The notes under the pieces: model-generated
What the model was told of the DNA's origin: nothing
Seen by the model: the letters and a program-made list of their open reading frames with translations, nothing else
Databases searched by the model: none
Assembly (NCBI RefSeq): GCF_029962835.1
Contig: NC_080577.1
Span: 29,804,501 to 29,868,500, forward strand
Source of the DNA: Magnolia sinica
Lineage: Eukaryota; Streptophyta; Magnoliopsida; Magnoliales; Magnoliaceae
Direction: 5' to 3'
DNA length: 64,000 nucleotides
Part shown: piece by piece, positions 10,063 through 56,420 of the stretch
Layout: each line of letters begins with the position of its first letter
Position numbering within the stretch: position 1 is the first letter of the stretch
Translations under genes and position numbers: made by a program

Positions 10063-10773
10063 TCAAACAGAGAAGATCTTTATAATCTGATCAATCTTAG
10101 CACGGCAGATTGGGCAGCCCAATTTTTTGGCTTTGATGTCATTCAAACAAGACATGCAGCCGATCACGTGACCACAGGGAACACATACCACCTCTTTAGG
10201 GGCGTCCAAACATATCACACACAATGAAGAAGCATCTCCGTCTTCTATGATTTCACTTTTCACAGGTTGGACCTCAACGGCTGGCATGGATAAATCTATG
10301 GGGCTGCAGTCAATGGAAGGATAATGAATCGGGCCATTGTCTGGGCTGTTATCAGGAATTGGTGGGGCAGAAGGAATTACAGAAACTCCCTGAGGAATGT
10401 TTAGGGTGGATGTGCCAACATCCGACCCACTACTCTGGTGGTGCTGAATTGGATCGGCACTTGGCCCAGCTTCTGGTGTACCCCATCCATTATATGTACT
10501 ACTAGCTGGTGCTTCTATCAATCCACTGCTACTGCTCGCTTTTGAAGGAGGTGAAGGTCCCTGTGGTGCGCCCCAACCATTGTGGCTTGCATTGTCAGCA
10601 GAATTCCCCCAACCATTCATGTCGCTTGCTTCAGAGCCCGGGCGGGTGGGAACAATTGGCGGTCTCTCCTCCATAGCCAACTGAATAGAGGCACTGATGG
10701 CCATAGCTAACTGCAGATCTTCAGGATTAGTAGTCGGTGCAGGTCCTGGATTTCCAGCAGCGGGAGGAATGAC
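10063..10773 (-). CDS. XBAT35: XBAT35-like exon 9 (UIM-like motif and RING)
   Basis: 236 codons plus stop after acceptor CTCTTTACAG. It begins [10 protein letters not shown], then the UIM-like helix, a long Ser/Pro/Gly linker with repeated NGWG motifs (NGWGNS, NGWGAP, NGWGTP), the family motif [15 protein letters not shown], and the C-terminal RING (CVIC...CGH...CPIC). The frame stays open upstream to 10794, but the acceptor fixes the exon start at 10773. Confidence 0.9.
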   Translation of the reverse strand, partial: VIPPAAGNPGPAPTTNPEDLQLAMAISASIQLAMEERPPIVPTRPGSEASDMNGWGNSADNASHNGWGAPQGPSPPSKASSSSGLIEAPASSTYNGWGTPEAGPSADPIQHHQSSGSDVGTSTLNIPQGVSVIPSAPPIPDNSPDNGPIHYPSIDCSPIDLSMPAVEVQPVKSEIIEDGDASSLCVICLDAPKEVVCVPCGHVIGCMSCLNDIKAKKLGCPICRAKIDQIIKIFSV

Positions 10774-13700
10774 CTGTAAAGAGACATTAGTCAAATATGA
10801 GGCATGGTCTCCCTGGGAGAGAGTGTGTGTTCACCTTATGTGATGTATGGATTGTGAAATCATACACTGAACAACAGCGGACGAAATACCCTCAAGTGTG
10901 TGCGTGTGTTTTCACCAGATGTGATGTATGGATTGTGAAATCGTACGCTGAACAACAGTGGATGAAATACCCCCCAAAAGGACCTTCATTTAAAAGGTAT
11001 ATTTTCAATATCTCAAGGGTGGTATTGGTAAAAGACATCTAAGGCAATTTCTTAGTCAACAGTCAAGCAAACACATTTTTGGCTGTCAGACTTCATAACT
11101 GAAAATGACAGCTTGAAAAGGACGCCAGAAAGCCTAAGCATCCACATACCAATTGTACCCAAGTCATGCTGAGGTAACATGGCTAAACATACATGCCAAA
11201 TGTCTAAAGTTGAATACTCAAACAAATATGTGAAATGATTTGTGATAAAATGCAAGTAATTCGTGTAAAGATAGACAACTTATCAATTATCATCAGTAAT
11301 TCCCTTCTAGGTCTTTGTATCACCTGATGCATTCCGCGGCAGGCATTATGAAACCATAGCAGCTGCTGCTTGTCGCCCTCATTTGCAGATAAGAACTTAA
11401 ACCGCGTTTCTGCATAGGATGCGGACAATTCCAAATTCAGTAAAGTTTGTTAGACACAGAACATATCATAAATCCTAAACTAATGAAAATTTTCATAGAA
11501 ACATTAAAAAAAGGGACGAGTAGCTGGAATCTGAAAAGGAAAAAAAAAAAAAAAAGATCTCTGTTTCCATAGCAAGTTGCAATGGTAGTTCTAGCCACTT
11601 TTTTCCATGTTTACAGTTTAATCATGGTTGTCTGCTACTTGTGGTTATATTAAGATCATGTGGAGTAAGTGCCAGTGACACCACCTTCCAAAAGATGATG
11701 GCAGGGGTCCTTCAACAATAACATGCATATATGACAAGCATACCATTGCACATTTACCTGTGCACCTCCAACATTTTCAGGAAGTTAGCATGAGTGAGAT
11801 GCAGCAGCTGCAAAGAGGACCACCAAAACCCTAATGATTAATGATATCATTTTCATGAGCCTCATCTGTTAAGTTCTCATTGCCATTTAATAAAGAGATT
11901 GGCATCTTATGGGCACTGTCACCATCCCGATTCAACATGCATGAAGTGGACATTGGAAGGCAGAAGCAGTAGCTCCAAAGAAGTCTACGCTTGATTCCAC
12001 CCAGGAATTACTCATAGAAAAGATACTGAAAGAGCTGAACAAAATCTTTAGGAATTTGGAAGAATCTTTCCACAAAGAAGGAATTTGGATGATTTTTTTC
12101 CTTCTTTCTAATCTACTTAGAAAAGATCTAATGCCTACTGAGGCTGCTTTTAATTTGTGCAAGATGGGCACTTTAGAAGTTACTTCCCCAATTCCTGGAA
12201 AACAAAAAGTTTAGTTTTCCCTTCCGATCTTGGAAACTTACACGGTTCTTTCAGACTTAATTGATAAAAATTTAACATGATTTAAACTAAATCATGCTCC
12301 ACAGGCCTTCCTAGCACTACATCCTCTAGACCTCGACTCTTTGCAAAATCTCATTTGCAGTTATTGCATAATAGTTTGGTCAGCGTGTGACACATGGGGC
12401 ATGACCATGTTGGCAAATGTAAGTGGTGTTTGGTAAACATGTATCTTTTGGTCTCCTTACCATTTTGTGCAGCCAACCACATGAGCATGTCCTTTTTTGT
12501 TTGTGGTCCAATGGTGGTATATGGCCTGTAACACTGTGATACAGGGCCAATACATTTTCTTCCATTAAAAAAATAAAAATAAAATCCATTCGTTACAGGG
12601 CCATAACAGGTGTTATGGTCCATATCATAATAGTCATCAGACTGGCCGTTATGGCCATCATTAACATTATCGAAGACCTTGTAAATGAGTGCTTCTAGTT
12701 ACTGGGTTTCTACAGCACTACATGCTCTAGAGCTTAACTGTTTGCAAATCCCTCATCGTGCTAGCCTTACAATAGGTGGGCTAAGGTGCAGTATGCACCA
12801 GTTGGTTCCCTGCCATTATGTGCAGCAAACTGTTCGAACATAACCCTCCATCTTCAAGTTTTCCTTGGTTCTCAGAGGTCATGCCTGGAGACTGCCCCTC
12901 CAGAACCCTACTTCACTTGCTAGCTTGCCTTTGCATGCGCATAATAGTTGGGCTGCGTGCCAGTGGCTCCAATGTGAGTCTCTACCATAGCCAGTTCCAA
13001 TAGCTCACATAAAAAAGGGAGGGCAGATGTCTTGCATGCAGTCAATCATAAAACTATCGCCAATGTATTATTTAAAAGCTGCCCAAAATTTGTGGGAAAA
13101 GGCTAAGATGGTGATGACGACGGCGAATCTACTTAGAAAAGATTCAAAACAGGAATTATAACAGTTGCTCCACATAAGTTTGACAACTGGATGATATCAT
13201 TGCACTCTACCAGGTTGGGGAATCAGCTGGTTTGCCACTACGAGGCGAAACAGCATATGTAAATCTAAACCAAAAAGCTGGAACAAGGCTACGAGCAATG
13301 ATGAAAACAAGGAAAATGGATGATGATGATAGTGATGATGAATTTACTTTAAAAGCTCTCTCCTAGATGTAATAACTATCACCATTTTCCATCAGAACAA
13401 GATCTCCGGGACTCCAAAAACTGATTTCAACAAATTCACCATGGTGGTGAGAGAGCTGTGAGTGCTAAACTTCAAGTGGATGGAATCTCTCAAGAAACTT
13501 GATAGGATTCTTGTTGGTCTGAGTCAACTGGATGCAATTGGTAACACATTCCCACTGGATGCGACTGAAGTACGCATGGAGCTTTGCCAGTTCAAAAATG
13601 AACACAACTGTCCACTTTTCAACGAGATAGTAGAGGAAGCAAAATGCTTCATTGGGACAGTAATACAGATCTCGGAAGGATATGGGAGTCAGGAATGGGT

Positions 13701-16700
13701 AATGAAGATGTGGTATATGACAGAAAACAGGAGCATTGCGGAACAGGTGAATTTCAAGGAAGGTTTTGAGGTTATGGGATGGCCTGTTGGCAATGTACAT
13801 GGTATGGATAATGGATTTGATTTCTGGAGGGAGTTCTGCAATTCTTTCAAGGGGAAAGATATTGAGAATGGAGAGTTCATGGATGGCTAGTGAGGATATG
13901 GCTTTTGGTGGGGGTTGAGAAGGAAGGTGAGACAGGAAGTCTGCAAGGATGTTATCCTTTCCTTTGATCTTGTTCTCTGTGAAACTCCATTGAGAAAACC
14001 AATTGTACCATCGTAGCAGCTGAGGCTGAGGGATCATCTTCTGCTTGAACTCAAGCATGCGTAGGAATGTTGATCTGCTAATACGAAGACGGAACTTAAA
14101 ACACACTTTATTTCTAAGTAGCATAATAGAAAACTACAACTCAAACTCTATATTTACAACACTTATCAGACTTTACTTATAACTACTCTTCTTACAACTT
14201 ACTTACAACTGAGGAATACATTGTTATTTATAGACGTTGTCGGATGTCAAACAAAATTTCAAAATACTACAATCTGCTGATTATTGATGCACTGTAGGAA
14301 GGCGTGGGACACGTGTCCATTGTTCTGTTGCTTTTGCTCGAGACATTGAAGGACTTGTGAGACACATTAGTCCTTGGTAACAATGATGAGGGACACCTGT
14401 TGCTAGTCGAACTGCTGTGGCCTGGGAGAGGCTTGCTAAAGGAGGACACGTAAGCTTTTGGATGTAGATGAATGTTGACGGATGCTTCTGGATATGGACG
14501 GGTGGCTCTTTTGCTAGAGATGGTTTGTGAGAGCTGAGTGAGAAAATGACATCTGGCGATAGCGACCTTTGTGATGGTGACATGAAAATGACATTTCAAT
14601 GTTTTGCTTTTGAATTCTCATGAAGCTTCTTTAAGTATCACTATTAGAAGAGCTATCACTTTCACTGGAGGAGGGAGTCATGAGTATTTCCATGTTACGT
14701 TCAACATATGTGAGGAAGTGATCGAGGCAGAGATCGCTGTTGGCGGTGGTGATTGAATTTAACCCGATGGAGCTGGGAATATCGGTCATTAGTGGCAAAG
14801 ATGACATTAATCTCAAACAAGTCTATCTCAACTCTCTCCCTGATCCCCTCGAAAATGAGACCACCAAGTTTCTCGAACAAAGAAACTTGCATTTACAGAT
14901 AGTTACATTGGGCCAGATACATCAAACGTCGCTCCTTGCAGTTCAAAAACTGTGCAACCAGCATAAGTTCTTGAAACATGCAGAGACGATGATCACCATT
15001 GCCAACAGTGACCTCTGCCTCGATCACTTCCTCACATATGTTGAACATAACATGGAAATACTCATGGCTCCCTCCTCCAGTGAAAGTGATAGCTTTTCTG
15101 ATAGTGACACTTGAAGAAGCTTCACGAGAATTCAAAAGCAAAGCATTGAACTGTCATTTTCATGTCACCATCACAAAGGTCGCTATCGCTAGATGTCATT
15201 TTTTCACTCAGTTCTCAAAAACCATCTCTAGCAAGAAAGCCACCCGTCCACATCCAGAAGCATCCGTCCACATTCATCCACATCAAAAAGCTTACGTGTC
15301 CTCCTTCAACAAGCCTCTCTCAGGCCACAGTGAAAGTAATAGCTCTTCATTGGGTTCATGTATCTCGAAAATGACAAACTCACCGTCCTATCTTCTAGGA
15401 GAAAATCTATTGTTTCCTACCCCGAGGTAGCATTACTTGCCCCTTGGCGGCTTTGAAGAATTGAGAGTGGGGATGCCACGAACTTTCTGGTAGAATGGAT
15501 GGATTCAGTATTGAGATGGTTGCGCCGATATCTGCGAGAGCAATGACCGGGATTGAAGGCGGAGACAGTTGGCAGATGAGTTCAACTCGAATGAGCGGAG
15601 TTGGACTAACTGCCGTGATCGAGGGTAGAGTGACAACTTCAAAAATGTGGTCGACAGTGTCGATGGCATGAACTGCTTGCTGGTCGTCATCTGATTCAGA
15701 GGAATAATCAGACTGACTGGAAACATCCTCTTCTTTTGAACAAGTGCGTGGCAAACTTCGCCTTGTCATCAACTATAAGCCATTGAACAAATATCTCTAG
15801 GATGACAAGTTTCTTTTGCCATGCCATACCATACCTCCTTATTTCAACACTTGACAGATGCAAATCTGTTTTCCAAGTTTGATCTTAAGGCAGGATTTTG
15901 GCAACTGGGTATCAACCCAGCTGATAGACACAAAACAGCATTTACTGTCCCAAATGCACACTATCAATGGTTTGAAAACCGCTCCGTCTCTTTTCCAAAA
16001 AGCGATGGTTCGGATCTTTAAACCAATCCTATACCACTGCTTGGTGTACATTGATGATCTCTTGTTGTACTCTCCAGATGAGAAGACTCACAGTGATCTT
16101 CTCCAGCAGTTTCATGCAATCTGTGTGGAAAAAGGCATCATGCTCTCAGAAATTCAGAGTCAGTGGGCTCAATGAGACCTTCTGCAAGGAGACCTGTAAG
16201 TTCATCCTGTGCAAGTTTCAAGTGATCAGGATTCATTCCAGGGTGACTTGCTTTTGTGGGGGTGACTGCCACCTGTTGTTTGAACGAAAGGTAAAGGAGG
16301 AGGTAAGTAATGCTGCCTCAAACAGTAAATGTTGTTTTGTGTCTATCAACTGGGTTGATACCCAGTTGCCAAAATCTTACCTTAAGATTAAACTTGGAAA
16401 ACAGATTTGCATTTGTCAAATGTTAAAATAAGGAGGTACGGTATGGCAAAGGAAACTTGTCATCCTGGAGATATTTGTTCAACGGCTTATAGTTGATGAC
16501 AAGGCGAAGTTTGTCACGCACTTGTTCAGAGTGCTTGTTTACGTAGAAAGCTTCGCAGTTCGACTACCAACAGGTATCCCTCATCACTGTTACCAAGGAC
16601 TAACGTGTCTTACAAGTCCTTCAATGTCCCAAGCAAAAGCAACAAAATAATGGACGCGTGTCCCACGCCTTCCTACAGTGCATCAATAATCAGCACATTG

Positions 16701-19700
16701 TAGTATTTTGAAATTTTGTTTGACGTCCAACAACGTCTATAAATAGCAATGTATTCCTCAATTGTAAGCAAGTTGTAAGAAGAGTAGCTGTAAGCAAAAT
16801 CTGATAAGTGTTGTAAATATAGAGTTTGAATTGTAGTTTTCTATTATGCTACTTAGAAATAAAGTGTATTTTAAGTTCCGTCTTCGTATTAGCAAATTAT
16901 CTCCTTATAATATTTCCCGTTTTCTTTTAATTACAGATATTATTTTTTTTACTCCATTTCCTCGTTTAGTGTATTTAGGCCCACATCAACTTCCATCTTT
17001 ACAATGTCTCCGCCATCCATTATAGCAGCAGTAGGATTTAGTTTTTGCTTTCTTGTTTTACTTTTAGCATACTTATGTCTTCGTTTTACTAAAAAAGCTT
17101 AATTTATTCATTTTGTTTGTCAATACTGTCCTGTGCTACAGTAACTATGCTACAGTATCCGTGCTACAGTAACACAGCTATAGTAACATTCTGATTTAGG
17201 TTTTCCGATTAGTGTCTAGGGTTTTCAGAGTTTATTAGGGTTTTGGATATTTTGCCCATGTTTTCACCTGTGCGTTTAACTAGTATCAGAGCCAACACCA
17301 TCATGTTTTTCTAAACTTCTCCTTGTAGGATGTATGCGATGGGCAGGACTATCTTCAGGTAAGCCTTGTAATATTCAATGTTAACATAGTCTATCTCCTT
17401 TTGCTAGTAGATAGCTACAGTCGCCATGATTAATATGCTCTACAGTTGTGCTTCGTGCGATCTTCTGTATCAGAAAACTTGGTTTGACAGTAACTGTTGA
17501 AAAAGCTGGATATAGAATTCCTTTCTAGATATCAAGAAACCATTGGTGAGTTTTGACCGTTTAGCCGAAGTAGGCGTTGAGGTCACCCCCCTTGTAGCCA
17601 ATACGTTCTTGATAAAAGAAAGCGAGTTGTATCAAACTATGCGACACACCAAACATCATCGGGTCTCCTAGGGTTGCCTTATCCTGACCATACATTCTGC
17701 ATTCACTTCCATTATGTCATCTGCTCATTCATCGTTTTCGTCTTCTTCTTTTACTAGGTCTCTTCCCCTTGCATCATGTAGTGGTAATAAATATGATTTT
17801 TTGTATGAGATAGAATATGTAGATAGTAAGGTTCCTACTACTCAAACTCCAGTCTCAAACCCTTATTAGTTCTTCCAGAAAAATCGTGCTTCCGTCTCAG
17901 CCAAAATCAAACAGCTTGTCCAAAAACAGCCAAACTCCATTCGGGAGTATGCTTTGTCTTCAAAATTTGACCAGGCTCCCATCAAAGCCAACCAGCTTGA
18001 AGAATTTGTGACTCTTCAGTTGCTGAAAGAAAACCTTTCTGATTGGAGAAAGCAAGGATATACTCATTTGCACTTTGGTGTTGTCCGCCTTGCAATCACT
18101 TTCCATGGCAGGAAAGGACTCCCATCACCTTGCAAACTCTCCCTGCTGGATATTAGGTTTAAGCAGTACTAGCATGTTGTTATAGGCACAATCCAAACCA
18201 CACTGGACCAGGGTACAGTGTTTGTCACCTTGTATCCCAATTTCAATATCCCGTTCAGTGATCCGCACCTCTTTACAGCTCTCCAAGCCCAAGTTAAAAG
18301 TTGAACATGATAAATGAAGGTGGATCAGAATCATGCTACTAGTGGTCATTTCAGAGAAAATAGGCGATCATTTTCTCATAACCCTCTATCAACACATGGC
18401 CATGCATATGAGAGTCCAGTGGTCCTCACCAAAGACAGGCAACAGCCTAAAATTCCACGAATTGGATGATCCTAATCATCTGACCAATGGACTCTTACAC
18501 TCAAGAGTAGATCATATTTCATTTTTAGGCCACCTGTTGAACAGTTAAGATGACTTGATTGGAATGTTAACATGATGTGGCATATCCATGGTGGGGCCAC
18601 TGGATGGAAACTCTTAGCCACTGCACAGATAGGCACAGGTATGGCAGAGATAGTGTATGGACATCAAATGCCACTGCACAGATGGGCCCATTTGGTTTTC
18701 CAATTTTCTATGAAATGCAAGAGCCATCATTATCATTTCCAGGTGTTTGTTTAAACAGGAATTAAGCTTCATAAATCAAGAGTCAAATACACTTCTAAAG
18801 GAAGTAGGTAAAGTAAATTGTAATCATTACAGTTTCACATTATAAAACTACCATTTTTACAGTGATTTCTGGGTGAAACAAACAATGTAGCAAAATCAGC
18901 ATTGCAGTCAAATGTAAGTGATGCCACCACACAATTACATAAGTAAATAATTATTTACCCATTTTACCCATTTATAGCCATTTCCGGTTGTAATTGGAAA
19001 ACCAAACAGGCCCTAAAAAACTTCTACCATATTTAAAAGTTATAGACAACAACAGTCTTCAGCAGAATCCCAACCGAATGCGAGTAAATTACCATAACTT
19101 CAATCATAGTGCCATAAGTAACATAAAAATCTTAAAGGTGATATGAACTTACTGGAGGCCTTGTCAAAAAGAACCATAACAGGATCTGGCTGGTTGAACT
19201 TTACTTCTTCAATATTGGTCTTCCAAAGTTGGATAATAGTACGAGGCTGAGCAACCTGTTTATCAGTCAGAAGATCTTTGTAAGTAAAATACAGAAACCA
19301 TACCAATGATTTGAACAGCAACATATTTAATTCCAGTAGAAGAAAATTCCCAAAAGAAAAGTTTAAGATTTTGTCCTTGAAGGTACAGACTACAGTCATC
19401 AAAATCACTTGATACACTGCAAACCACAGGGGCTTGCTTTTTCTCATTAGAAAATCAGACCAACCCATCTCGACAATCAGTACTCAATTCTAGCCCAAGC
19501 AGCACTCAGTCTGTTCTTATTTTGTTCTCAGAATGTGCTCAATTTGTAAAATGAGCTCAGCCAGATTATTTTTGTAAAACCTTAAGATTACATAAAACAC
19601 AAAAAAAAAAGTCTGACAACCTATAGAACCTAAGACAACATATTGCTATCATCATCATCTAAGGCTTATAAGTTATACCAGCTAATTGGGCTCGGCTACA

Positions 19701-22700
19701 TTAAGAGGATATATTACTATATACTACTATAATGTTTTTATATTGACATGAGTTAAGCATGAAATATAAAGTTTTTGGAAAAGGACGTATGCCTGAAAAT
19801 ATAAAGTTTTTGGAAAAGGACGTATGCCTGATCTACTTTGACGTAATCATCAACATCATAACATCACCCTCATTGTCAGTGTCACAAAAAACTAGGCACT
19901 TTCCATGTGGGAAAAGGATAGAAAAATCCCTGTGGCAAGAAAAGATATCCCATCCTTTTTCTATGCTAATGCTTCATACAATACAAATAGTAAATTTCAA
20001 ACCACTAATAAAAACTACTATCATCTAAATGACAAGAATAAAAGACTCTCTATATTGCTACCACTCAGTAATAGACTATGAAATTGCATCATGCAAAGGC
20101 TCAGGTATTCACCAGTCGAGGGAGATCCAAAAAATATTTGTTGAGGTGAGCTTCTAGGGACTTGAGAGGGAAACTTGCAGGTAGGATTTTATGATGGCCG
20201 AGATAAGGTACTTCAACTCAAGGTTAAACATCCAGTTTCCCATGGTTCCTCGTGTAGCCAATGGTTAGGCAAACCTTGCTAGACGAGGCTTCTGTAGTTG
20301 GTAATTTTTATCCCGGATTCTATTCTCTCGATCTAATTTCCTTCCATTTTAATAAAGTCGCACGATCTATTGAAAAGAAGAAAAAAAAATATGGGCATTT
20401 TAATGCCCTTAAACATTCTTTGTTCCATATTCTAAAAATAGTCACAAGATAATCCCATTCAATGTTCATTCTAAGCATGCTTTCCTGGTTTGTTTTTTTT
20501 CAATGTTTTGTCTGCAAACCCAGTTCTCTTTCTTCCTCTTCTTCTACCTTTGCTTTGTCTTTCCACTTGCTCCTCCTTCTGATCCTTGATGATTGACTAT
20601 AGAAAACAACATTGTTTATAGAAATGACCATGTAAACTTATTTTAGTCCCTAAAATATCTTTAAAAGTCAACTGGTATTTAAGTACAACACATCGCAACA
20701 TTTTTACAACGGGTCATTAAAATCACTATTGCAGGTTTAGGAAGTATTCCAGTAGAACAAAACAATAAGATATCCTTTACTATTGTTGTTGATCTAGAAG
20801 AAAGAAAGAATGGGAGGAGGGGAGAGGGAAAACATGAGAGAGTAGAGAGCCTTAGAAGCCCCCCCTTTTGTTTTATTAGTAGGGTTTTCACTTAGGAGTT
20901 GAAATTACAAGAATACCCTCATAGAAAGAAACAAAAAGAAACACACTACTAAAGACTCATGTCATAAAGATTGAACCCCAACAGGATCACCATCACACGT
21001 GTGGACACATCACATGTGTGACCATTCTAACGCTACCCCTCAAGCTAGAGCATATATATGATAAATGCCCAGCTTGTCAAAAAACCTATATAGATGAGCT
21101 TGACTTAAAGCTTTTGTGAACATGTCAATAACATGATCTTTAGATTTGATGAACGGTGTGGATATTTCCTTGTTTGGCACCTTCTCTCTGATGAAAAGTG
21201 GCAATCCACTTCAGTATGCTTGGTCTTCTCATGATAAACTGGATTATTGGCGATATGTGATGCAACTTGATTATCACAATATCGATTCATGGGTGTATCA
21301 ACCACAAAACCTAACTCACACATCAATGTCTTTAGCTACACAAGTTCACGCATGGTATGGGCCATAACTCTATACCATGCTTCTGCACTAGAACGGGCAA
21401 TGACTTGTCACTTTTTGCTTCTCCAAGTAACACAATTACCTCTTACAAAGGTACAGTAACCTGTGGTGGATCACCTATCTGGAGGAGATCCAGCCCAGCC
21501 TGCATCAGAGAATCCTTCCATTCTAAGATGTCCATTTTGCTTGTAAAGAATTCCACAACCTGGGGCGCCCTTCGAATATTTAAGTATGCAGAACACAACT
21601 TCCATATGAGATACACGAGGGGCTTGCATAAATTGAGTAACTACACTGATTGGATAAGTAATATCCGGTCATGTAATAGTTAAATAGATCAATTTACCAA
21701 CCAACTGGCGATATCTGCCTGGATCATCAAATAGGTCTCACTCATATGTACTTAACTTAGAGTTTGCGTCCATGGGAGTTGTAACCGGCTTAGCCCCTAG
21801 TAAACTTGTCTCTTCTTAGAAGTCCATAACATATTTCCTTTGCGACAAATTAATTCCCAACTTTGATCGAGTTACGTCAACATCCAGAAAGTATCAAAGA
21901 TAGCCTAAATCCTTTGTACAGAAGTGTTGCTGCAAGAACTTCTTCAACACATATATGCCTTTACCATCATTTCCAGTAATGATGATGTCATCCACATAAA
22001 CAACATGAACAAGAGTGCTAGTCTCACTCTGCCTAACAAAGATTGAGTAATCAGGATGATTGTATCTCATCCCAAACTGCATTATCACTTTACTAAATTT
22101 GTCAAACCACGCACGTGAAGACTGCTTTAACCTATAAATCGATTTTCTTAGCCGACATACTTTATCATACTCCCCCTGAGCAACAAAGTCAGGCGGTTGC
22201 TCTATGTACACTTTTTCAAGTAAACGCATTCTTTACATCCAGTTGATATAGGGGTCAATCTAAATTTTTAACAATAGAGATCACCACACGAATTGAATGA
22301 AGCTTGGCCACCAGGAAAAAGTTTCAAAGTAGTCAACTCTAAAAGTTTGAGTGTATCCTTTTGCCACCAAACGGGCCTTTAAATGATCCACAGTGCCATC
22401 GGACATGTACTTCACGGTATATACCCATCTGCATCTTACTGCACGTTTTCCTACAGGTAACTTAACCAAAGTCCAAGTTTGATTTTGATGAAGTGAAACA
22501 ATTTCTTCTTCCATAGCTCTTTTCCACCCATCAGAATGTAGAGCCTCTTGAAACGATCGAGGGACAAACACATATGACAAGGACAAAGCAAACAACCGAA
22601 ATGAAGGTGATAGACCATTCAAGAAAACAAAATTGGAAAAAGAATGTAGAGTATACGAACATATACCCTTTCAAACAACAATAGGTTGATCAGCTTCATT

Positions 22701-25700
22701 CAGCAAGTCTGGCAGGGCCTGTTACTAGGCGGATCTTCAGATGGATTGGTAGAACTGGTGGAGGAACATTACTAGGTGCTTCAGTACTTCTCGTGGAACA
22801 TCTAGAGTAGACCTGCAATGGTAGAGGATTTGGATGTGACTTCGTGGCTTGCTTTATAGGTAAATTTGTGTTTGTCACCACAGGAAGGCTAGTAGAGATA
22901 TTGGAATATTGCAAAATCTTCCCATCATCTGAGAAATATGTAGTTTCAAAAAATGGGACATCCATGGACACATATCGTCTACGGGTAATAGGATTATAGC
23001 ATTTCTAGCCATGTTGAGTATTTGAGTACCTCAAAAATACGCACTTTACAACTTTGGGTTTGATCTCATCTAAGACATGATCAAATTGATGTACAAAACA
23101 TACACATCCAAAAAGTTTAAGAGGAAGTGAAAAGGAAGGACACTGGGGATACAAGATAGACAAAGGAGTTTGACCTCCTAAAACTGATGAGGGCATTCGA
23201 TTTATAAGATAATATGCAGCTAAAACGACATCACCCTAAAAACTTTTGGAACCTTCACATCTAATAATAATGCCCTAGCTACTTCAAGCAAATGACGGTT
23301 TTTATGCTAAGCAACTCCATTTTGCTGCTATGCATGCGCAAGACGTTTGATGAATGATGCCATGAGATAAGAGATTGGAGTTAAAAAGATTTGATCTCTA
23401 CTCGTTGGCATTCTCTGATCTTAGTGTCAAAGGAAATATCAACCTACACAGCAGATTTATGTCAAAGGAAATATCAATCTACACAGCAGATTTACAGCTT
23501 TACAGATTTACAGATTTACAGCAGATTTACAGCTAATATCTACAGCAGATTTACAGCTAATAGCAGATTTACAGCTAATATCTACAGCTTTGACTGATAT
23601 GACAGTTATACAGATTTATTCCTTCCTTAATTAGGATATATTAGCTGTACAGTATATTTAGATAGATGTATATATGGTAGGGGCTGAAGATCAGCTTGTA
23701 TTTCTTCCCTAAATAGCTTGTAATCTACCTATATAATGGGCAATTGTCAATGAAGAAAGGCAGACTTTTTCAAAAGGACTCTAAACTGTCATGGTATCGG
23801 AGCTATAGCTCTAAATTTCCATTTGTCTCGTGCTCTCAAGTTTCTTAGTCTCGGTTATTCTTGTTCTAGTTCTGTTGACCTCATGTCTTCCGATAAGTCT
23901 GATGTTTCTTTGATTCGTTTCAATGGCAAGAACTACTCTGCTTGGGCGTTTCATTTCAGGATTTTCGTCAAAGGTAAGGAGTTGTGGGGACATGTTGATG
24001 GCAGTAACCTAGCTCCTGACAAAGACAAAGACAAAGACCGACACGCCAAGTGGGAAGTCAAGGACGCACAAGTTATGGCATGGATTTTGGGATCCGTTGA
24101 ACCCAACATCATCTTGAACCTTCGATCTTCTCAGACTGCAGCTCAGATGTGGACATACCTGAAGAAGGTCTACAGTCAACAAAACACTGCTCGTCGTTTC
24201 CAGCTTGAACATGAATTGGCCACTCTCCAACAGGATAGTCTTTCTATCTCCGATTTTTACTCTAGATTCACTAATCTTTGGGCTAAATACACTGATATAG
24301 TTTATGTTGACTTACCATCCGAAGGTCTTAGTTCTGTTCAATCTGTCCATGAAACTACTCAGAGGGATCAATTTCTAATGAAACTAAGGTCTGAATTTGA
24401 AGGCACCAGATCCAATCTTATGAACCGAGAATCTGTCCCCTCCTTGGATACATGCCTAAATGATCTTCTTCGCGAGGAACAGCACCTTCTCACTCAAACC
24501 ACCATGGAACAACGACGATCTACATCTGTTCCTGTAGCCTATGCAGCACAAGGCAGGCCATGAAGCAGGGATATGAGCACTGTTCAGTGCTTCTGTTGCA
24601 AGGGATTTGGTCATTATGTTGCAAACTGTCCCCGAAAATTCTGCAACTATTGCAAAAAGGATGGCCATATCATCAAGGAATGCCCAACTCGACCCCCCAA
24701 GAAATCGGAGACAGCATATACTGTCTCAGTTGGCTCTTCTAGTGCGGGTAGTTTGGTGAATACAACACAAAGTGCTCCTGCTCCTGCTCCCATTTCAGTC
24801 CAACCCGTGACCCCTGACATGATTCAACAAATGATCATTTCTGCATTTTCAGCTTTAGGACTCTCAGGTAAACCCTTCACTACATCATCTCCTTGGTACT
24901 TTGATTCCGGGGCTTCCCATCATATGACAAACAATGCTGCTTCTCTTACCAATGTAAACAAATATTTTGGAAATCTCAAAATTCATACTGCTGATGGCAA
25001 TCATTTACCTATCACGGCCACTGGTGATGTTTCCTCCTCTCTCACTGATGTCTTCGTATCTCCCGGTCTTACCACCAATCTTGTGTCTGTTGGTCAGTTA
25101 GTTGATAATGATTGTAAAGTAGAGTTTTCTAAATCTGGTTGTGTTGTGCAGGATCAACAGTCAGGGCGGATGATCGCGAGGGGGCCTAAAGTGGGACGTC
25201 TTTTTCCTCTTCAATTTCCTTTGTCTTCTTTTTCTTTGCCTTTTGTCGCTTGTAATTATGCTCATGTTGATTACCGAGCGTGGCATAAACGTCTCGAACA
25301 TCCAAACTCTAATGTACTTCATGCTTTATTGAAATCTGGTTTTCTTGGGAATAATGAAACACCATCTCTTAGTGTTGTTCAGTTTGATTGCAATTCTTGC
25401 AGACTTGGCAAAAGTAAAACTCTACCCTTTCCTTTTCACACACCGCATGTTGTCAAACCTTTCGATCTGATACATAGTGATGTGTGGGGTATGGCACCAG
25501 TCACTTTGCATGCTAATTACAAATACTTTGTCACTTTTATTGACGACTATAGTCGTTTCACATGGATTTATTTCCTTCATTCCAAAGACGAAGTATTTTC
25601 TGTTTTTAAGATTTTTCATGCATATATTCAGACACAATTTTCGGCCCATGTCAAAATCCTTCGTTCTGACAATGGGGGTGAGTATATGTCTCATTTGTTT

Positions 25701-28700
25701 CAGGACTTCCTACAGAATCATGGCATCATCTCTCAACGGTCTTGCCCTTCGACACCTCAACAAAATGGAGTGGCTGAAAGGAAGAACCGTCACCTTCTTG
25801 ATGTGGTTCGCACTCTTCTGTTAGAATCTTCCACGCCCTCTCGATTTTGGTGTGAAGCTCTTTCCACTGCTGTCCATCTCATTAACAGATTGCCTTCTCC
25901 CACATTGAACCATGACTCACCTTTCACCAGTTATTTGGTCACCCTCCAACTTATTCTAACCTTCGTACCTTTGGTTGTGTCTGTTATGTTCATCTTCCTG
26001 CACATGAACGCACAAAACTTACGGCTCAATCAATTAAATGTGCTTTTCTAGGATATTCAGTACAGCAAAAAGGTTTTCTTTGCTATGATCCAAATCTGTG
26101 TCGCATTCGAGTTTCTAGAAATGTGATTTTTTTCGAAAATCAATATTTCTTTTCTACCCATCAGGATCATGTTTCTCCTTCATTTTCTGTTTTGCCTATG
26201 TTTCCTAACTCTCTTGCAGATCCAGTCCCTTCTAAACCTCTCCTAGTGTATCGACGACGCTCCACCGCCACTTCCCACCAACCTTCAGCACCTCCTGAGC
26301 CCCCTCAAGCTTCTTCCCCGACTGCTGCTCCTGTTTCAACACCTGCACCTCCCTCTCTCCGACTCAGTACTCGGGTTCGTAGACCCCCAGATAGGTTTGG
26401 TTTCTCTTCTCCTTCATCCTTCATAGCCACTTTGTCGTCTATTTCTCTTCCTTCATCTTATAAACAGGCAATGGAGCATGAGTGTTGGCGAAAAGCAATT
26501 GAAACCGAACTTCTCGCACTTGAAGAAAACCAAACATGGGATGTTGTTCCATGTCCCTCCTCCGTGAAACCCCTTGGCAGTAAGTTCGTGTTTTCTATCA
26601 AGCTTAATTCCGATGGGTCCATAGATCGTTACAAAGCTCGGTTAGTGGCACTTGGCAACAAACAAGAATATGGTCTCGACTATGATGAGACCTTTGCACC
26701 GGTCGCCAAAATGACCACTGTCCGAACTATACTCGCTCTTGCTGCATCCCAATCCTGGCCCTTACATCAAATGGATGTTAAGAACGCATTTCTCCACGGT
26801 GATCTCAAGGAAGACGTTTACTTGAAACTTCCCTCTGGTATGCCCACTTCCTCACCTACTGATGTTTGCAAACTGAAACGTTCTTTGTATGGTTTGAAGC
26901 AGGCACCAAGAGTATGGTTTGAGAAGTTTCGATCCACTTTGCTTAGTTTTTCTTTCACTCAAAGTCAGTATGACTCCTCTCTTTTTCTACAAAGGACATC
27001 CACAGTATCGTCGTCCTCCTTGTTTATGTGGACGATATCGTCATCACTGGCTCTGACTTGGAGGCAATCTCTGCGGTTCAGACTTTGTTGAATTCTACAT
27101 TTCACATGAAAGATCTTGGCCAGCTCACCTATTTCTTGGGTTTAGAGGTGCATCATCAACCGCACGGTCTCCTCTTGCATCAGCACAAGTATAGTCAAGA
27201 TCTGGTTCAGCTAGCCGGTCTCACCAACGCTACTTCGGTTGACACCCCCATGGAACTTAATGTGAAATATCAACGTGACGAAGGGGAGCTTCTTGAGGAT
27301 CCTACTACCTATCGGAAGTTGGTTGGTAGTCTTATCTATCTAACCATTACCCGACCAGACATCTCTTATGCTGTTCATACCGTCAGCAAATTCATGCAAG
27401 CACCGAGGCATCTCCATCTATCTGCAGTCCGCCGCATAATTCGCTACATTCTTGGGACACCTACTCGTGGCTTATTCTTCCCTTCCGGTTCTTCACTTCA
27501 GCTACAAGCCTATAGTGACGCTGACTGGGCTGGCTGCCCAGACACCAGGAAATCTACTACCGGCTGGTGTGTGTTTCTTGGTGATGCCCTTATCTCTTGG
27601 AAATGCAAGAAGCAGGACCACGTCTCCAAATCATCTACTGAGGCCGAGTACCGAGCCATGTCTGCAGCATGCTCCGAGATCATTTGGCTGCGTGGTCTCC
27701 TCACAGAGCTCAGTTTCATTCCCGTACATCCTACTCCACTCCATGCTGACAACACTAGTGCCATCCAAATTGCCGCAAACCCAGTCTATCACGAACGCAC
27801 CAAGCACATCGAGGTTGACTGTCACTCAATCAGGGAAGCCTATGATCATCAAGTCATCACTCTTCCACATATCTCCACAACTTTGCAGATCGCCAATATC
27901 TTCACAAAATCCATGCCACGTCAGCGCCATCATTTTCTCGTTAGCAAATTGATGCTTGTCGATTTACCAGCATCAATTTGAGGGGGGATGTCAAAGGAAA
28001 TATCAATCTACACAGCAGATTTACAGCTTTACAGATTTACAGATTTACAGATTTACAGATTTACAGCTTTGCAGATTTACAGATTTACAGCAGATTTACA
28101 GCTAATATCTACAGCAGATTTACAGCTAATAGCAGATTTACAGCTGATATGACAGTTATACAGATTTATTCCTTCCTTAATTAGGATATATTAGCTGTAC
28201 AGTATATTTAGATAGATGTATATATGGTAGGGGCTGAAGATCAGCTTGTATTTCTTCCCTAAATAGCTTGTAATCTACCTATATAATGGGCAATTGTCAA
28301 TGAAGAAAGGCAGACTTTTTCAAAAGGACTCTAAACTGTCACTTAGAACATATTTTAGCATCAAATCGAGTTTGGATTTGAGCATGAAATTCTTTAAAAC
28401 ACATAAACACCTTAGAATTATCTTTCATCAAATATAACCATGTCATTCTAGAGCAATCATCCACAAAAATAATAAAATAAAGTCAAATAAACTAGAAATA
28501 TGAATGGGTCCCTAAACATCTGAATGTATCAAATAAAATGGTTTATCACTAACTTTATCTTCACAGAAAAGAAAAGACATTGTGATGCTTGTGTAACTCA
28601 CAAGCTTCATATCCTAACTTAGACATATAGGACAAAGATGAGACAAGGCTCTTCAAATTAGGTAAAGATGGGAGCCCAAGCCTGGAATGCAATTGATGTG

Positions 28701-31700
28701 AAGAGATATTAGCTTGCAATGTAGCTCCAGCTTCAGTCATTTCACTCTTGAGATAGTGGAGTCCATTAGATTCATGCCCTCTGCCAATCATCCTCACCGC
28801 CTTTAGATCCTCAAACTCACAATAAGAGGGGAAAATTTTTGACAGAGCAATTCATAGATTTGGTTAGTTTGCTTACAGATAATAAGATCAATGGGAACTT
28901 TGGAATATACAAAACTAATGACAAGGAAAGATCAAATGTAGGACAAGAAGATATAGTGCCTTCACCAAATACACTAGTTGAAGTGCCGTCGGTCAAGGTG
29001 ACAAATGAAATGGATGAAGACTGGACTAACTTGGATAGCAAACTACGCTTACTGATCATATGATCGGAAGCACCATAATCAATAATCCACATGGATAACA
29101 CTAAAAAAATGTAAGACAAGATGTACATGACCATGCAATGGTAGCAGTGGAGGAAGATGCATGAGTGGAATGATTTTCTAGAAGCATGGCGTAATCTTCT
29201 ATGGACATAATGATTGTATCACCTGAAGTAATCGGCTCAGCATGAGTGGCAAGATTGGATACATAACCTTCAGAACTAACTTCAAAATAATTGACTTGAT
29301 TAGCCCAGGCAGGCTTCCCATTTAGATCTCGGCATGAATCAATACTATGATTGTTGAGGCCACAATGAGTGCAATGACGATTACTGTGACCACGACCACC
29401 TCCAAATCTACCGCCTTGACCACGGCCACCTCGACTTCCCCCATCACCTCCACCCGCTGCACCCATCACCTCCACCCGCTGCAGAGATAAAAGTTGAACT
29501 ACCTGATGAAGTGAAACTCTGAGTAGACATGTCAGTCGTCCTCTGAATTCTGGCAAACGCTTTTGTCACTGAGAGAATTTCACTACCTCGAAGAATTTGG
29601 GACCTCACAGGCTCGAACTCAGGTGGAAGGCCATAGAGAAATTTAGCAACACGAAATTCCTCCATTTGCCTAAGCATAACCTCGAAATTTGTTGACAATG
29701 GTTGATCTACATTCAACTCTTACCACATGCCGCGTAAGGCAGAATAATATTCTCCCACACTTTTATCTCCCTACTAGAATGCAAATATATTTTGTAGGAG
29801 TTCATAAATACGGATTAAGTTTTTTTTTTTTCACCAAAATACATCTCCTTCAAAGCGACCAAGACATCTTTGGCAGTCTTAAGGAAGATTACATTGGCCA
29901 TAATATGTGGTTCCATACTATTACACAACAATGCCCTAATTTGGGTAACCTCTGCCACCCAATCATCATAGTCTGTCATAATGATATTAGGTTTGGAGGA
30001 TGTCAAATATTTAACTTTTCTCTTTCTAGTCAGAAAAACTTCTACTGATGTGGCCCACTATAGATGGTTCGTGCCATTCAATTTCATTGATGTTATTTGG
30101 AGAGGCACCAAATCTGATGAGGATAAAATACTGCCCTTGGGATCATTTTTGAATAATAACAATAATTTTTCTTGAACACAAATCCTTCAACTTATCTCGA
30201 TCAACACAATAAAGGAGAGGCTTCAAACTTCTGAATTTTCAGCCTTCAAATATGATTTCATGCTTCAAAAAATTAAACATAGATTGCATATTAGATGAAC
30301 GATGGCCCACGTGGTTCCATCATGCGAATATAATGCAAAAGCGGGCCTTACACACCTTCATTAAACACGATTTCACCACCTATCACGTGGCGGTACAACA
30401 ACCAGAACAGATTAGGTTAGATCAACCCCAAACAAGTTAGGGTTTCCTAATAGAGAAAATGAAAAGAAAATAAATAACAAAGTAAGACAGAAGAGAGATC
30501 AAGAAGCAAAACTGGATCAATGTGGCTCTGATACCATGTTGTTGATCTAGAAGAAAGAATGAATGAAAGAAGGAGAGGAGAGGAAATACGTGAGAGAGTA
30601 GAGAGCCTTAGAACAACCCCGAACAGGTTAGGGTTTCCTAATAGAGAAAACGAAAAGAAAATAAATAAAAAAGTAAGACAGAAGAGAGATCAAGGAGCAA
30701 AAATGGATCAACGTGGCTCTGATACCATGTTGTTGATCTAGAATAAAGAATGAATGAAAGAAAGAGAGGAGAGGAAAAATGTGAGAGAGTAGACAGCCTT
30801 AGAAGCTCCCCAACTTTTGTTTTATTACTAGGGCTTTCACTTAGGAGTTGAAATTACAAGAATACCCTTATAGAAATGAACAAAAAGAAACACACTACTA
30901 GAGACTCAAAGACTCATGTACATTCAACCCAGATACATAAAGACTGAACCCCAACAAGATGACCACACGCGTGACCATGTCACACGTGTGGACATGTCAC
31001 GCATATGACCATTCTAACAACTACAATTAAATAAATAAAAGACTCTTTATCTAGCATTTCCTCCACTCATAAAATGCAAAAACATTTATAACATTACACC
31101 AAAATTGACTTCATTATAAGACCTTTTCTTTAGAACCATAGCCAACAAGGAATTAAAATCAACATACTATCAGTGGAGAATATATAGAGCCAGACATAAA
31201 TGATACAAATACCCCGTATGACTAACCAAATTGGATTCATCCATGAATTAAATACAGTGATTTCGAGATGTGAACCGACCATTGAGTGGCTAGTGTCACA
31301 CACTAAGAAAATCAATGACAACCAGCATACTCCATAAATTGGATCGGAAGACACATTCTGGATTAGGACTTATGAACTCCCAAAGGACATTGACCCAAAC
31401 CGATGCAAACTCCAGCTAGAGCAACAATAACATAGGAAACTATTAAAAAGGCCCAAGTCTAAGGCGTGTTTGACTCAAATAACAATAATATCTTTTTTCT
31501 ATTTTTCCTACATCAGCAAGTGATACTTGTGTGGGGATATGAAAGAGTTCTTTCTTTCCAATACAGCACAAAAGAGCCTCATTTTGTAATTTGGAGATTC
31601 CACTACAAGATGAAATTCCAAAATCACAAAGTGTTTGTCTCTACTCCTGAAATGGCATGAGCCAAATACAGCTGAAAAAGGAATTAAGGAAATCACAGAT

Positions 31701-48396: not shown

Positions 48397-49457
48397 TCAA
48401 CTGACGTTTCTGCTTAGTAGTTCGACAAGCTTACCTTTCTTCAGCTTCGAGTAACCTTTCACGCCACGAGATTTCGCAAGGGCCCGCAATTCAGGTAGTT
48501 TCAATGAGCTCAAATCAACGTCTTCTGTCGGTGACGGTTCCGTTATCTCATCATAAGCTTCCTCAGCATCAGAAGACTCAGACAGCTCATCAAACACTGC
48601 ATCATCTTGCACATCCAAAGAAATGGGCTCTGGGTCCAGCTCAATTACATTCTTATTTCTCTTCCCCTGTGATTTTGGAGATGGACTTGGAGGGATATTC
48701 TCATCAGTGGAATAAACTGGTTGGTATTTTACTCTGGGTACAGGTGATTTACGTCGGAAATTTGATGCAGGCCGAGTAAAATGTGCAGTGCTCGGTTCTT
48801 GCACCTCATCTGTCGCGATGGTGTTTGTGTTGAAGAAATTCGAATTCTGTTCATCGTCAAATGGGCTGCTGTTTCTTTCGGGTTGCTCGAGGTTGAAGTC
48901 TTCACCACTGCTGCTTTTCTTCCCTTGCTTGACTGAGTGTTTTCGTAAGAGCTTGAGAAGGGAATCGACTGTCCCTCTCTCCCCTTGTGAGGCTTCAATC
49001 TTCTTCTCTTCTTTGATTGCAGCTCGTTCCCGGAGTTGGGCTTGGACCTTCCTGAATAGTTCAACAATCTCCTTCTCTCTCGGTCCAGGTGTTGCAGTAG
49101 CTTGAAACCTCGGGCTACCAGAAAGAGAGAGTAAAGGTCCGTTTTTGGAGGACAAAAACTCCGATTCTTCAAGGTTATCAGAGTTACTGTCTCTCTCTTG
49201 GTTGTGCCTGTTCTTGCCTCTGGAGAACCCATGTCCCTGTTTGTTTTGCCTTGAGAAGTCAGGGTTTCTTCTGTGGCCACCAGAGCTTGCAGTGCATACA
49301 AAAGATGGGCTTTTGGTGTCATAAAGTGGGTTATTTCTCAATAGTATCTTGACCCGTGAAAATGGTTTGTAGTCACGAGGACATGAATAAGATGACACAG
49401 CCACTCGTCCCGAAATTCCTGAGCATGGGAAACATCTCCCCTCAGATATTCCATAAC
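48397..49457 (-). CDS. RHON1: RHON1/BP-73-type Rho-N domain protein, 3' exon (partial gene)
   Basis: After an acceptor TGTGTGTGTGCAG the exon encodes 353 codons including the stop, beginning GYGISEGRCFPCSGISGR, a conserved N-terminal stretch of plant Rho-N domain proteins. The middle is hydrophilic, with EKEIVELFRKVQAQLRERAA (a helical segment) and many Ser/Glu/Asp. The C-terminus is the Rho-N fold, SLKLPELRALAKSRGVKGYS then KLKKGKLVELLS. Arabidopsis RHON1 is a chloroplast RNA-binding protein involved in RNA processing with RNase E and in transcription termination; rice BP-73 is a relative. The exon enters at phase 1, so the start codon and transit-peptide start lie upstream beyond 49457 and were not identified. 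A methionine at 49467 is in frame but lies in intron sequence. Confidence 0.82.
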
Positions 49458-50448
49458 CTGCACACACACAAAAAGAAAAGAAAGAAAGAATTCTTTATAC
49501 CATAGAACACACTATCCATAACAGAAGATAATAGTGTTAGTTGTGTTGATCAAACTATATATATATATATATCATACCAACTCTTTGCTTATTATGGGTC
49601 TTTTTTTTTTTAATTGCCATTTTCATTACAGATTTTCTTAGTTGTTTGACATTGACCAAGACCTTTAAGAACAGAACACGTGTTGAATTTTTGTAGTTTA
49701 GAGCACTGTATGGTGAAGCCTTTTATAGCAATCCTAATCAAGAAACAACTGAAGCTCATTTTCAAGAGCCAAACTTCTTAACCTACCAGCCTGCTGGAGT
49801 AATTAATTTCCTTGTATGAAGGGACCAGGTTCCCATGGTTAATATTTTCAGTGTAACATGAACGCTCCATTTCTTAAAGTGTTGCAATGTAAAGAAAATG
49901 TCCCATTAGATTGACAGATACAACATGGGTTTATATGATTCATCAGTGTAGAACTAAATTCACAGGTGAAGAAAGTCGGGGAGTTTTCAATGTGCAGTAG
50001 TTTTGTATTACATTCAAGCTTCCAGAGCCACTCCGAACAAGGTTCTATACACGGTTAACCCTAAGCCTACTAAAACCAGGGTATGTTTCTATTACCGAAA
50101 ATCCTCCTCAAACAAATTTGGTTCAGGTAGGGTCCTCCTGAATCCGTGCCCAGGAGGCTGCTGGCCAAGGGCACACTCCGGGATCTACTGCTACAATTTT
50201 TTTTCTTGAAGGGTGGGATCGACCTCTACAATACAACTAGTAAAACAAAATATAAGACACCTGCATGCATTTAAGTACTGGCTTGGAGTGTGACTCACCT
50301 GGGGACCAAAACGAGCACGACTCGGTCTGACTCGGTCCCGTTTAGGTCTTATATCAGCGTGGAAGCTTGTATTGTTTTGGACTGAAGCCAATACGACTCG
50401 GACAATATTGGGTTGTATCCAATGATATTTAAAACCAAATGCAACATC
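49458..50448 (-). other. Intron 1 of the RHON1-like gene (presumed), no exon seen
   Basis: A (TA)n run at 49556-49573 and a T tract at 49602-49612 occur. A strong donor-like GTGAGT on the minus strand near 50298 follows an open stretch (MASVQNNTSFHADIRPKRD), but its phase and lack of similarity do not support it as exon 1. Confidence 0.4.
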
Positions 50449-53465: not shown

Positions 53466-54840
53466 AAAAGTTTTTGAGAGGGTCTTCTCTTGTAGGGTGT
53501 GGTTATCAAAATCCTAGAGGTAATCTCCACCTTTTGCTAGTGTTTCCTTCTCCTTCGTCTCCTTTTAATGGAATTTTTAACGTTGTGTTTAGGATTATGT
53601 GGATTAGATGACTGATTTGTGCAATCAGCCTCCTACGTTGCACCAATCAACCTGGTTTTCGAACCATACCTCGATCCCTCTACAAGCACTGCACTGAACC
53701 ATCTAACATGTTTTGGATAAGATTTCTTACCTGTCCAAGTCCAAAACCAGCTCCTAATCAAATATAGATGTTTCCATATGCAATTTGCTGTACTTCTCTA
53801 CCCACCAAATATTTGCTACATCTCTATTTTAACTTCGGATTCTTCCATTTTTATTGTCAGCGGAAATTTTAAACATGTAATGTTTTCAAATGAAATCTGG
53901 AATCCCATCTCATATAAGAAGAACCATCTTCATGGAAAAGGGACCGAAAAGGTATGAAAATTCACCAACCTATTGAACGATGTCAACTTGCTAGTTTGCA
54001 AAAAAGAGGATCCTAGATATCAATCCCCACTGTGCCAAGATACATCTCTTCATCAACATTCAGTAGACATACCAATTAAAGCTAAGGGCAGGCAAGAACT
54101 GCGACAATGTCTAATAAGAGCATTTACTTGATCAACATTGATAAATAAAATCCATCATACCACATTTACTGTGAAATTTAACAGTGTCATTCTATTAAAT
54201 TCAAAATAGTTTTTAATATTGTAGATGCAGCTACTTTGCTATGAGAAATATCTGGTGAACAAAAATTGTAAACTTTTTTACCCATTTACTCCATGAATTA
54301 TAAATCGATGTAGATGTTTTAAGGATAGATCTGGCACATTCCAAAGCTTATACTTGGAAGACCATAAGCACAGAGAATCAATCTAAAACTAGAAATTATT
54401 AGAAAGTTCAAAATCAATGGAACTCATCAAATCTCAAGATACAATAACATCTAAAAGTCTAAGGGTGTAGTGAGGACCAAAAAACTTACAATCTTCTCAT
54501 GAAACATCAATGTAACAAATTCAGTAAGATATCAAGGAGAAAAACAAAGCAAAAAATCCCAAACCACAGTAAAACTGAAAGAGCCAATTGTAATTATTCA
54601 TCCAATATAGTGGACCTATTAAAATTCCACAACATATAAATCAAACTTCCTGATTCCCATACTCATCAATTTAAACCTACTCACACAGAAATAGCAAAGA
54701 AACAAAGACCAAAATAGCATTACAATATAGACTATTGAGGAGCTATCAAGAATCACAGTGTGCAAAAACACCTTAACAAGTGAAGCTATATATAGCATCA
54801 ATTGCATAAATATACAAAAGTATACAAAAAGATCAACTGA
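53466..54840. other. Intergenic or intronic, no gene seen
   Basis: AT-rich, unique-looking sequence. A donor-like ACAG|GTAAGA occurs on the minus strand near 53731, but upstream of it frames are closed. Confidence 0.4.
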
Positions 54841-56410: not shown

Positions 56411-56420
56411 CAAATTTCTT

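Follow-up and report, generated by a model that had tools for sequence, protein, structure and literature searches.

Inverted repeats of probable caulimovirid origin in an intron of an XBAT34/35-type gene of Magnolia sinica

The host gene and the viral fragments in intron 7

We analysed a 64-kb stretch of the Magnolia sinica genome (64,000 nucleotides of contig NC_080577.1, called the window below, with all coordinates counted from its first letter) in which a preliminary description had placed a scrambled endogenous pararetrovirus, folded into inverted repeats, inside intron 7 of an XBAT35-like gene. The window is plant DNA and carries an E3 ligase gene of XBAT34/35 type on the minus strand, from 34690 down to 10063. 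Joined together, the exon translations (488 aa) agree with the Magnolia sinica protein P0003 (XBAT34 isoform X1) at 99% identity and 100% coverage. A tblastn search with P0003 matched seven stretches of the gene; an intron-like insert interrupts two of them, and from this we infer nine coding exons. The last host exon (10776-10063) encodes a RING domain (PF13920, E 1.3e-14), and precomputed Pfam accessions of P0003 indicate ankyrin repeats. Exon 7 lies at 19258-19139 and exon 8 at 11413-11318, so that intron 7, numbered by counting over coding exons, covers approximately 11414-19138 and encloses the viral block, as had been described. In another predicted isoform, P0004, some of the upstream sequence is missing, but the junction over intron 7 is retained.

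Some eight short stretches of pararetrovirus (caulimovirid) sequence lie in intron 7, alternating in their orientation. They are given here with the arms of the inverted repeats (I1, I2 and I3/4) that they hold, where RT stands for reverse transcriptase and ORF for open reading frame.

13465..14072, minus strand: fragment A, RNase H end and a coding extension without database match (P0001 match; border taken from the repeat)
14073..14415, minus strand: fragment B block 1, viral promoter/R copy forming the left arm of I1 (inverted repeat of 16555-16897 at 93.3%)
14415..14753, minus strand: fragment B block 2, ORF end and upstream intergenic DNA, forming the left arm of I2 (inverted repeat of 14992-15330 at 92.3%; runs on into the I1 arm)
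14758..15330, plus strand: fragment C, ORF running into an intergenic region, with the I2 right arm at 14992-15330 (ORF 14722-15114; left border approximate)
15328..15348, plus strand: 21-nt filler at the break point, copied from the locus (20/21 and 19/21 matches)
15349..15736, minus strand: fragment E, probable aspartic protease region, degraded (PF00077, E 0.031, below the cut-off; borders approximate)
15737..16155, plus strand: fragment F, RT palm region with broken frame, I3/4 left arm at 15737-15948 (PF00078, PDB 8r0s, P0001)
16156..16321, minus strand: fragment G, RT N-terminus, out of order (P0001 match at 16236-16156; remainder unmatched)
16322..16554, minus strand: fragment H, second RT copy with one in-frame stop, I3/4 right arm at 16322-16528 (repeat and P0001)
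16555..18310, plus strand: fragment I, promoter/R with the right arm of I1 (16555-16897), then a leader, a possible primer site at 17281-17293 and a movement-protein-like ORF at 17870-18172 (right border approximate)
11414..19138, minus strand: intron 7 of the host XBAT34/35-type E3 ubiquitin ligase gene (from the flanking exons; ends approximate by a few codons)
10063..34690, minus strand: host gene with nine inferred coding exons (protein match, tblastn, RING PF13920)

The Tanacetum protein P0001 aligns to four separate fragments of the block (E 1e-6 to 2e-21), and its best match elsewhere in the window has E 0.8. This protein was found by a protein search with the 200-aa RNase H piece, in which 2 of 36 candidates reached E<=1e-3, each covering 23% of the query; the top hit among proteins carries the name 'putative reverse transcriptase domain, viral movement protein'. 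The RNase H reported in the preliminary description was recovered at 14097-13930 on the minus strand with 62.5% identity to P0001 over 56 residues (E 2e-21). Because this match starts within the I1 arm, close to its end (14097), the border between fragments A and B near 14072 was taken from the repeat. An open frame of about 150 aa follows the RNase H at 13465-13930; it is uncovered by the protein-search matches and is perhaps a polyprotein extension. P0001 also matches RT sequence at 15815-15970 and 16083-16151 on the plus strand and at 16473-16321 on the minus strand. Both RT pieces named before were thus found, but the count was too low, since a third fragment, the RT N-terminus at 16236-16156 on the minus strand (56% identity over 27 residues, E 1.2e-6), had been missed. 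The RT family PF00078 was matched in two frames, in one above the cut-off (E 9e-11) and in the other below it (E 1.3e-5). Of five solved structures matching the RT piece at 15855-16175, PDB 8r0s came first (E 3.2e-7), and the same entry was the best, although weak, PDB match of the RNase H piece (E 0.02). The entry is listed just as 'Enzymatic polyprotein'; we take it to be the RT of cauliflower mosaic virus.

The other parts of a pararetrovirus genome were recovered to varying degrees. Both promoter/R copies hold TATAAATA and AATAAA (16738 and 16858 on the plus strand, 14232 and 14112 on the minus strand), which agrees with the two promoter/R regions noted earlier; their viral origin follows from linkage. 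The presumed viral leader contains 3.9 copies of a 14-bp unit (TGCTACAGTAACCA) at 17134-17187, ahead of the primer site. The primer site at 17281-17293 has 1 mismatch to the initiator tRNA-Met primer 13-mer, but the window holds 6 matches to this 13-mer at <=2 mismatches where 1.07 would be expected by chance, some of the others at or near retroelement repeats. The movement-protein piece (ORF 17870-18172; PF01107, E 0.014) and the protease (PF00077, E 0.031) each gave the family that had been proposed for them, but at values below the Pfam curated cut-off, and the piece that follows the former (18176-18301) had no match. The order of leader, primer site and movement-protein-like ORF is that of caulimovirids. 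No support was found for the coat-protein region that had also been claimed, which is the ORF of fragment C: Pfam at E up to 1 gave just two unrelated weak matches, and 0 of 4 candidates scored in a protein search with the coat-protein-like piece. Because the locus is fragmentary, the absence of this domain does not exclude an endogenous caulimovirid.

RT and RNase H are common to caulimovirids and Ty3-type long terminal repeat (LTR) retrotransposons, the primer site is likewise not exclusive to one of them, and the match to the movement protein is weak, all of which would be compatible with pieces from Ty3-type elements. We consider this very unlikely. The best solved-structure match, the name of the best protein match and the position of the movement-protein-like ORF after leader and primer site point the other way, as does the absence of any integrase family from the scan listings of 14 pieces (one being the host RING exon). 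The RT and RNase H appear to be of caulimovirid type, as judged from best matches, and the locus is best read as a decayed endogenous caulimovirid. Viral contigs were scanned with RNase H, RT, P0001 and movement-protein queries; of the 2, 13, 2 and 9 pattern matches, respectively, none was confirmed as a relative, a result of little weight if the collection is poor in plant viruses. Only short pieces with broken frames are present, and the locus is not a replication-competent genome. By contrast, the eBSGFV-7 locus of banana streak virus in Musa balbisiana is thought to be recent and able to release virus (PMC10377300).

Inverted repeats and the assembly of the block

The block contains three pairs of inverted arms: I1 (14073-14415 and 16555-16897; 343 nt, 93.3%), I2 (14415-14753 and 14992-15330; 339 nt, 92.3%) and I3/4 (15737-15948 and 16322-16528; 212 columns, 91.5%, with one 5-nt length difference). 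When 13.0-18.7 kb was compared with the 64-kb window at E 1e-3, these three pairs were the only off-diagonal matches, and no further copies were found. Two further inverted pairs, short and less alike (30 and 27 nt, 70-74%), appear to be chance matches. These results partly confirm the preliminary description: a scrambled pararetrovirus in alternating orientation, as seen from the RT and RNase H homology to P0001, PF00078 and 8r0s, with inverted repeats, largely holds, and its anatomy is somewhat more structured than first described. Fold-back chimeras of long reads also create inverted repeats, but these should have near-identical arms, whereas the arms here are 6-8% different and have unrelated spacers. 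The exons flanking the intron also match the public proteins P0003 and P0004, and an artefact of sequencing or assembly is hardly credible.

On the left side, the I2 and I1 arms form one unbroken stretch between 14753 and 14073. Their counterpart on the right halts at 15330 and restarts at 16555, with a 1-nt overlap. I2 and I1 were probably once a single 682-bp inverted repeat, the right arm of which was interrupted at a single position by 1,224 bp that hold protease (minus strand), RT (plus), RT N-terminus (minus) and RT (minus). The filler at 15328-15348 matches both I2 arms, at 20/21 positions of 14667-14647 (inverted, 35.3 bits) and at 19/21 positions of 15078-15098 (29.5 bits); as a control, 20 three-mer shuffles gave 0 matches of at least 32 bits and a mean of 0.2 of at least 28 bits. 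Templated filler together with a short overlap is what end-joining repair would be expected to leave, and the presence of both at the split point suggests that a break was repaired here. Divergence was equal in the two duplications (49/682 for I1 and I2 together, 13/207 for I3/4; Fisher P 0.76), which are therefore probably of one age.

We propose that fragments of viral DNA were captured, probably during the repair of a chromosome break, and were joined in alternating orientation with templated filler. The first product would have been an inverted repeat of 682 bp, its arms separated by 238 bp. More or less simultaneously, additional protease and RT pieces, holding an inverted pair of their own, would have been placed into the right arm. 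The templated filler and the splitting of an arm at a single point suggest a route by which such repeats may originate.

Comparable pieces are known from other plants. In tomato, rearranged, inverted and truncated endogenous pararetrovirus clones (LycEPRV) have been described, with others cited (PMC1899175). As at the Magnolia locus, they contain fragmented, inverted or partly duplicated pieces with a TATA box, a poly(A) signal and a tRNA primer motif, for which the Magnolia locus has a possible counterpart; by contrast, they are mainly heterochromatic, lie beside transposable elements and, in the passages on them, are not placed within introns of genes. Caulimovirid fossils that are sometimes intronic are likewise found among the endogenous florendoviruses (Geering et al. 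2014, PMC4241990). Approximately 9% of the Vitis loci overlap genes, nearly all of these being intronic, and capture at double-strand breaks has been proposed. In the Magnolia sequence, the repeat finder gave no TA repeat or (TA)n array, which would be a clue to a border, at 11.3-19.3 kb.

Divergence of the arms

Three other repeats in the window were used as controls. Intron 6 contains an LTR retrotransposon (23425-28341), presumably of Copia type to judge by its ORFs, with LTRs at 23425-23791 and 27989-28341 that differ at 12 of 347 compared sites. A tandem pair at 30417-30804 has units of about 197 bp that are 93% alike and is perhaps retroelement debris; each copy contains a single exact TGGTATCAGAGCC (30524-30536 and 30715-30727, minus strand). 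Outside the gene, a fold-back or palindrome at 54.8 kb has arms at 54838-55350 and 55900-56412 (513 nt, 90%), within about 1.6 kb (54838-56412) that match their own reverse complement at 84%.

The arms of the viral block differ by 62 substitutions, 56 of them transitions and 6 transversions. The corresponding counts were 6:6 in the Copia LTR pair, 7:6 in the tandem pair and 55:21 in the palindrome, so that the 56:6 of the arms differs both from the LTR and tandem pairs pooled (P 0.0002) and from the palindrome (P 0.01). Transition differences in the arms affected 11 of 44 CG, 15 of 59 CHG and 30 of 273 CHH sites (25, 25 and 11%; CG and CHG versus CHH, P 0.001). The palindrome has a similar gradient (CG 27, CHG 32, CHH 18%), as expected for silenced repeat DNA. 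Since its assembly, the block would have decayed as silent, cytosine-methylated DNA in the manner of a transposable element.

Transition-rich differences are also common among viral variants. The arms might therefore come from different viral strains present at capture, in which case the repeats would be younger than their divergence implies. Several features make this improbable. By codon position (1/2/3), differences number 5/3/1 in the RT arm (9 of 13 counted) and 2/3/4 in the I2 ORF (9 of 26 counted), and the lack of third-codon bias among these 18 coding differences looks like decay in the genome and not like virus divergence under selection. The stop in the RT arm of fragment H and the 5-nt length difference inside the arms also tell against separate strains, and the CG and CHG enrichment fits decay in the genome.

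The arms differ at 62 of 889 compared sites and the intron-6 Copia LTRs at 12 of 347 (P 0.016, calculated with the LTR column entered as all 347 sites and not the 335 unchanged ones, a minor error). Because the arms have diverged more, the viral locus is probably older than the Copia insertion. Methylation inflates the rate on which an absolute date would rest.

Hairpin folding and possible function

Host-sense RNA of 14060-16910 is predicted to fold at -1751 kcal/mol, compared with -724 to -871 kcal/mol for five stretches of equal length from the window. The predicted pairs joining the three arm pairs number 335, 319 and 200 (854 together) and take in nearly all of each arm. As modelled, a hairpin from host-sense RNA is physically sound, in line with the earlier statement that a transcript of the host gene could fold into long hairpins of viral sequence. 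To judge by their TATA positions (14232 on the minus strand and 16738 on the plus strand), the two viral promoter copies are directed away from the repeat block, so that only transcription from outside, most simply that of the host gene, would cross both arms. Read-through from the host gene may give an intronic hairpin RNA with approximately 850 base pairs in three stems. The AATAAA at 14112 is in host sense just beyond the hairpin and might end such RNAs. Selection for the hairpin is unsupported, as the host-sense mismatches show no excess of the pairing-preserving kind (G.U 30 versus A.C 26, P 0.69; G.U:A.C 15:6 in I1, 9:13 in I2 and 6:7 in I3/4).

The idea that such hairpins yield small interfering RNAs (siRNAs) is already published for tomato (PMC10377300). 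The tomato loci termed transcriptionally competent siRNA areas (TSAs; Valli et al. 2023, via PMC10377300) are, like the Magnolia locus, rearranged endogenous caulimovirids with inverted repeats and a hairpin-forming transcript, and they give 22-nt siRNAs and silencing in trans. By contrast, the Magnolia locus belongs to a magnoliid, lies in a host intron and has arms that are 92-93% alike and decaying. In soybean, inverted repeats derived from cucumber mosaic virus and from caulimovirid plus transposable element sequence feed small-RNA production (PMC10377300). The soybean repeat of cucumber mosaic virus RNA1 (PMC6256188) resembles the Magnolia block in its inverted viral sequence, and an siRNA-yielding hairpin has been proposed for it; however, it is of RNA-virus origin, has a near-complete 3.4-kb sequence, and its siRNAs were actually observed.

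An active immune locus of the tomato kind, where DCL2 would process a host-transcribed hairpin into 22-nt siRNAs that silence related caulimovirids, would be in keeping with these reports and with a rearranged caulimovirid that has long inverted repeats and a strong predicted fold in the intron of a gene with two predicted isoforms. The host-sense AATAAA at 14112 could, beyond the motif itself, yield a stable intronic poly(A) RNA, and I1 taken by itself leans to pairing-preserving changes (15 versus 6). We nevertheless think such an activity unlikely: this lean disappears when all arms are taken together, the arms decay as methylated repeats do, and introns are normally removed and degraded. 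The viral-contig scans also gave no confirmed relative, with the small weight already stated. A quite doubtful variant is an intron-borne antiviral memory, in which the host promoter would drive a caulimovirid hairpin ended by the viral poly(A) signal at 14112, the promoter arms silencing incoming viruses transcriptionally and the RT arms post-transcriptionally.

The reading that we prefer, with a probability of about three in four, is a decayed caulimovirid locus that was captured, probably at break repair, and shows no sign of a selected role in defence. The locus is probably inert. If the hairpin is diced, it would most likely feed local small RNAs and methylation and not a selected antiviral defence.

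Several points weigh against this reading. Fragments B and C are called viral by linkage to the promoter/leader copy and not by homology, and the frames of the short ORFs are uncertain. Break repair and the order of events are reconstructed from this single locus, and junctions can be read exactly only at the split point, where fragment B is the sole uninterrupted second copy. Methylation is deduced from the substitution pattern; with two arms only, the C-to-T direction is unpolarised, and some transitions could stem from mutation in the virus before its capture. Nor is the gradient seen in every repeat of this region, as the Copia LTR pair has no CHG excess (0/46 CHG versus 5/64 CHH, which are small numbers). 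One of the fold controls (11420-14270) partly overlaps the viral block.

With this locus, the inverted-repeat viral fossils of tomato and soybean gain a counterpart in a magnoliid, situated inside a host gene. The way in which it has decayed suggests that repeats of this kind can arise as by-products of capture and are not necessarily defence loci. Should small RNAs of the arms be found, a host intron would be seen to house a viral hairpin without breaking its gene. Among the titles and abstract openings found in the open literature searched, some of them part of longer match lists, none concerned this Magnolia locus; a survey of two Magnoliaceae genomes has been published (PMC13308828).

Elsewhere in the window, a minus-strand ORF of 365 aa lies at 48397-49494. 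By resemblance, it is perhaps an exon of a gene for a SAP/Rho-termination-like plastid protein.

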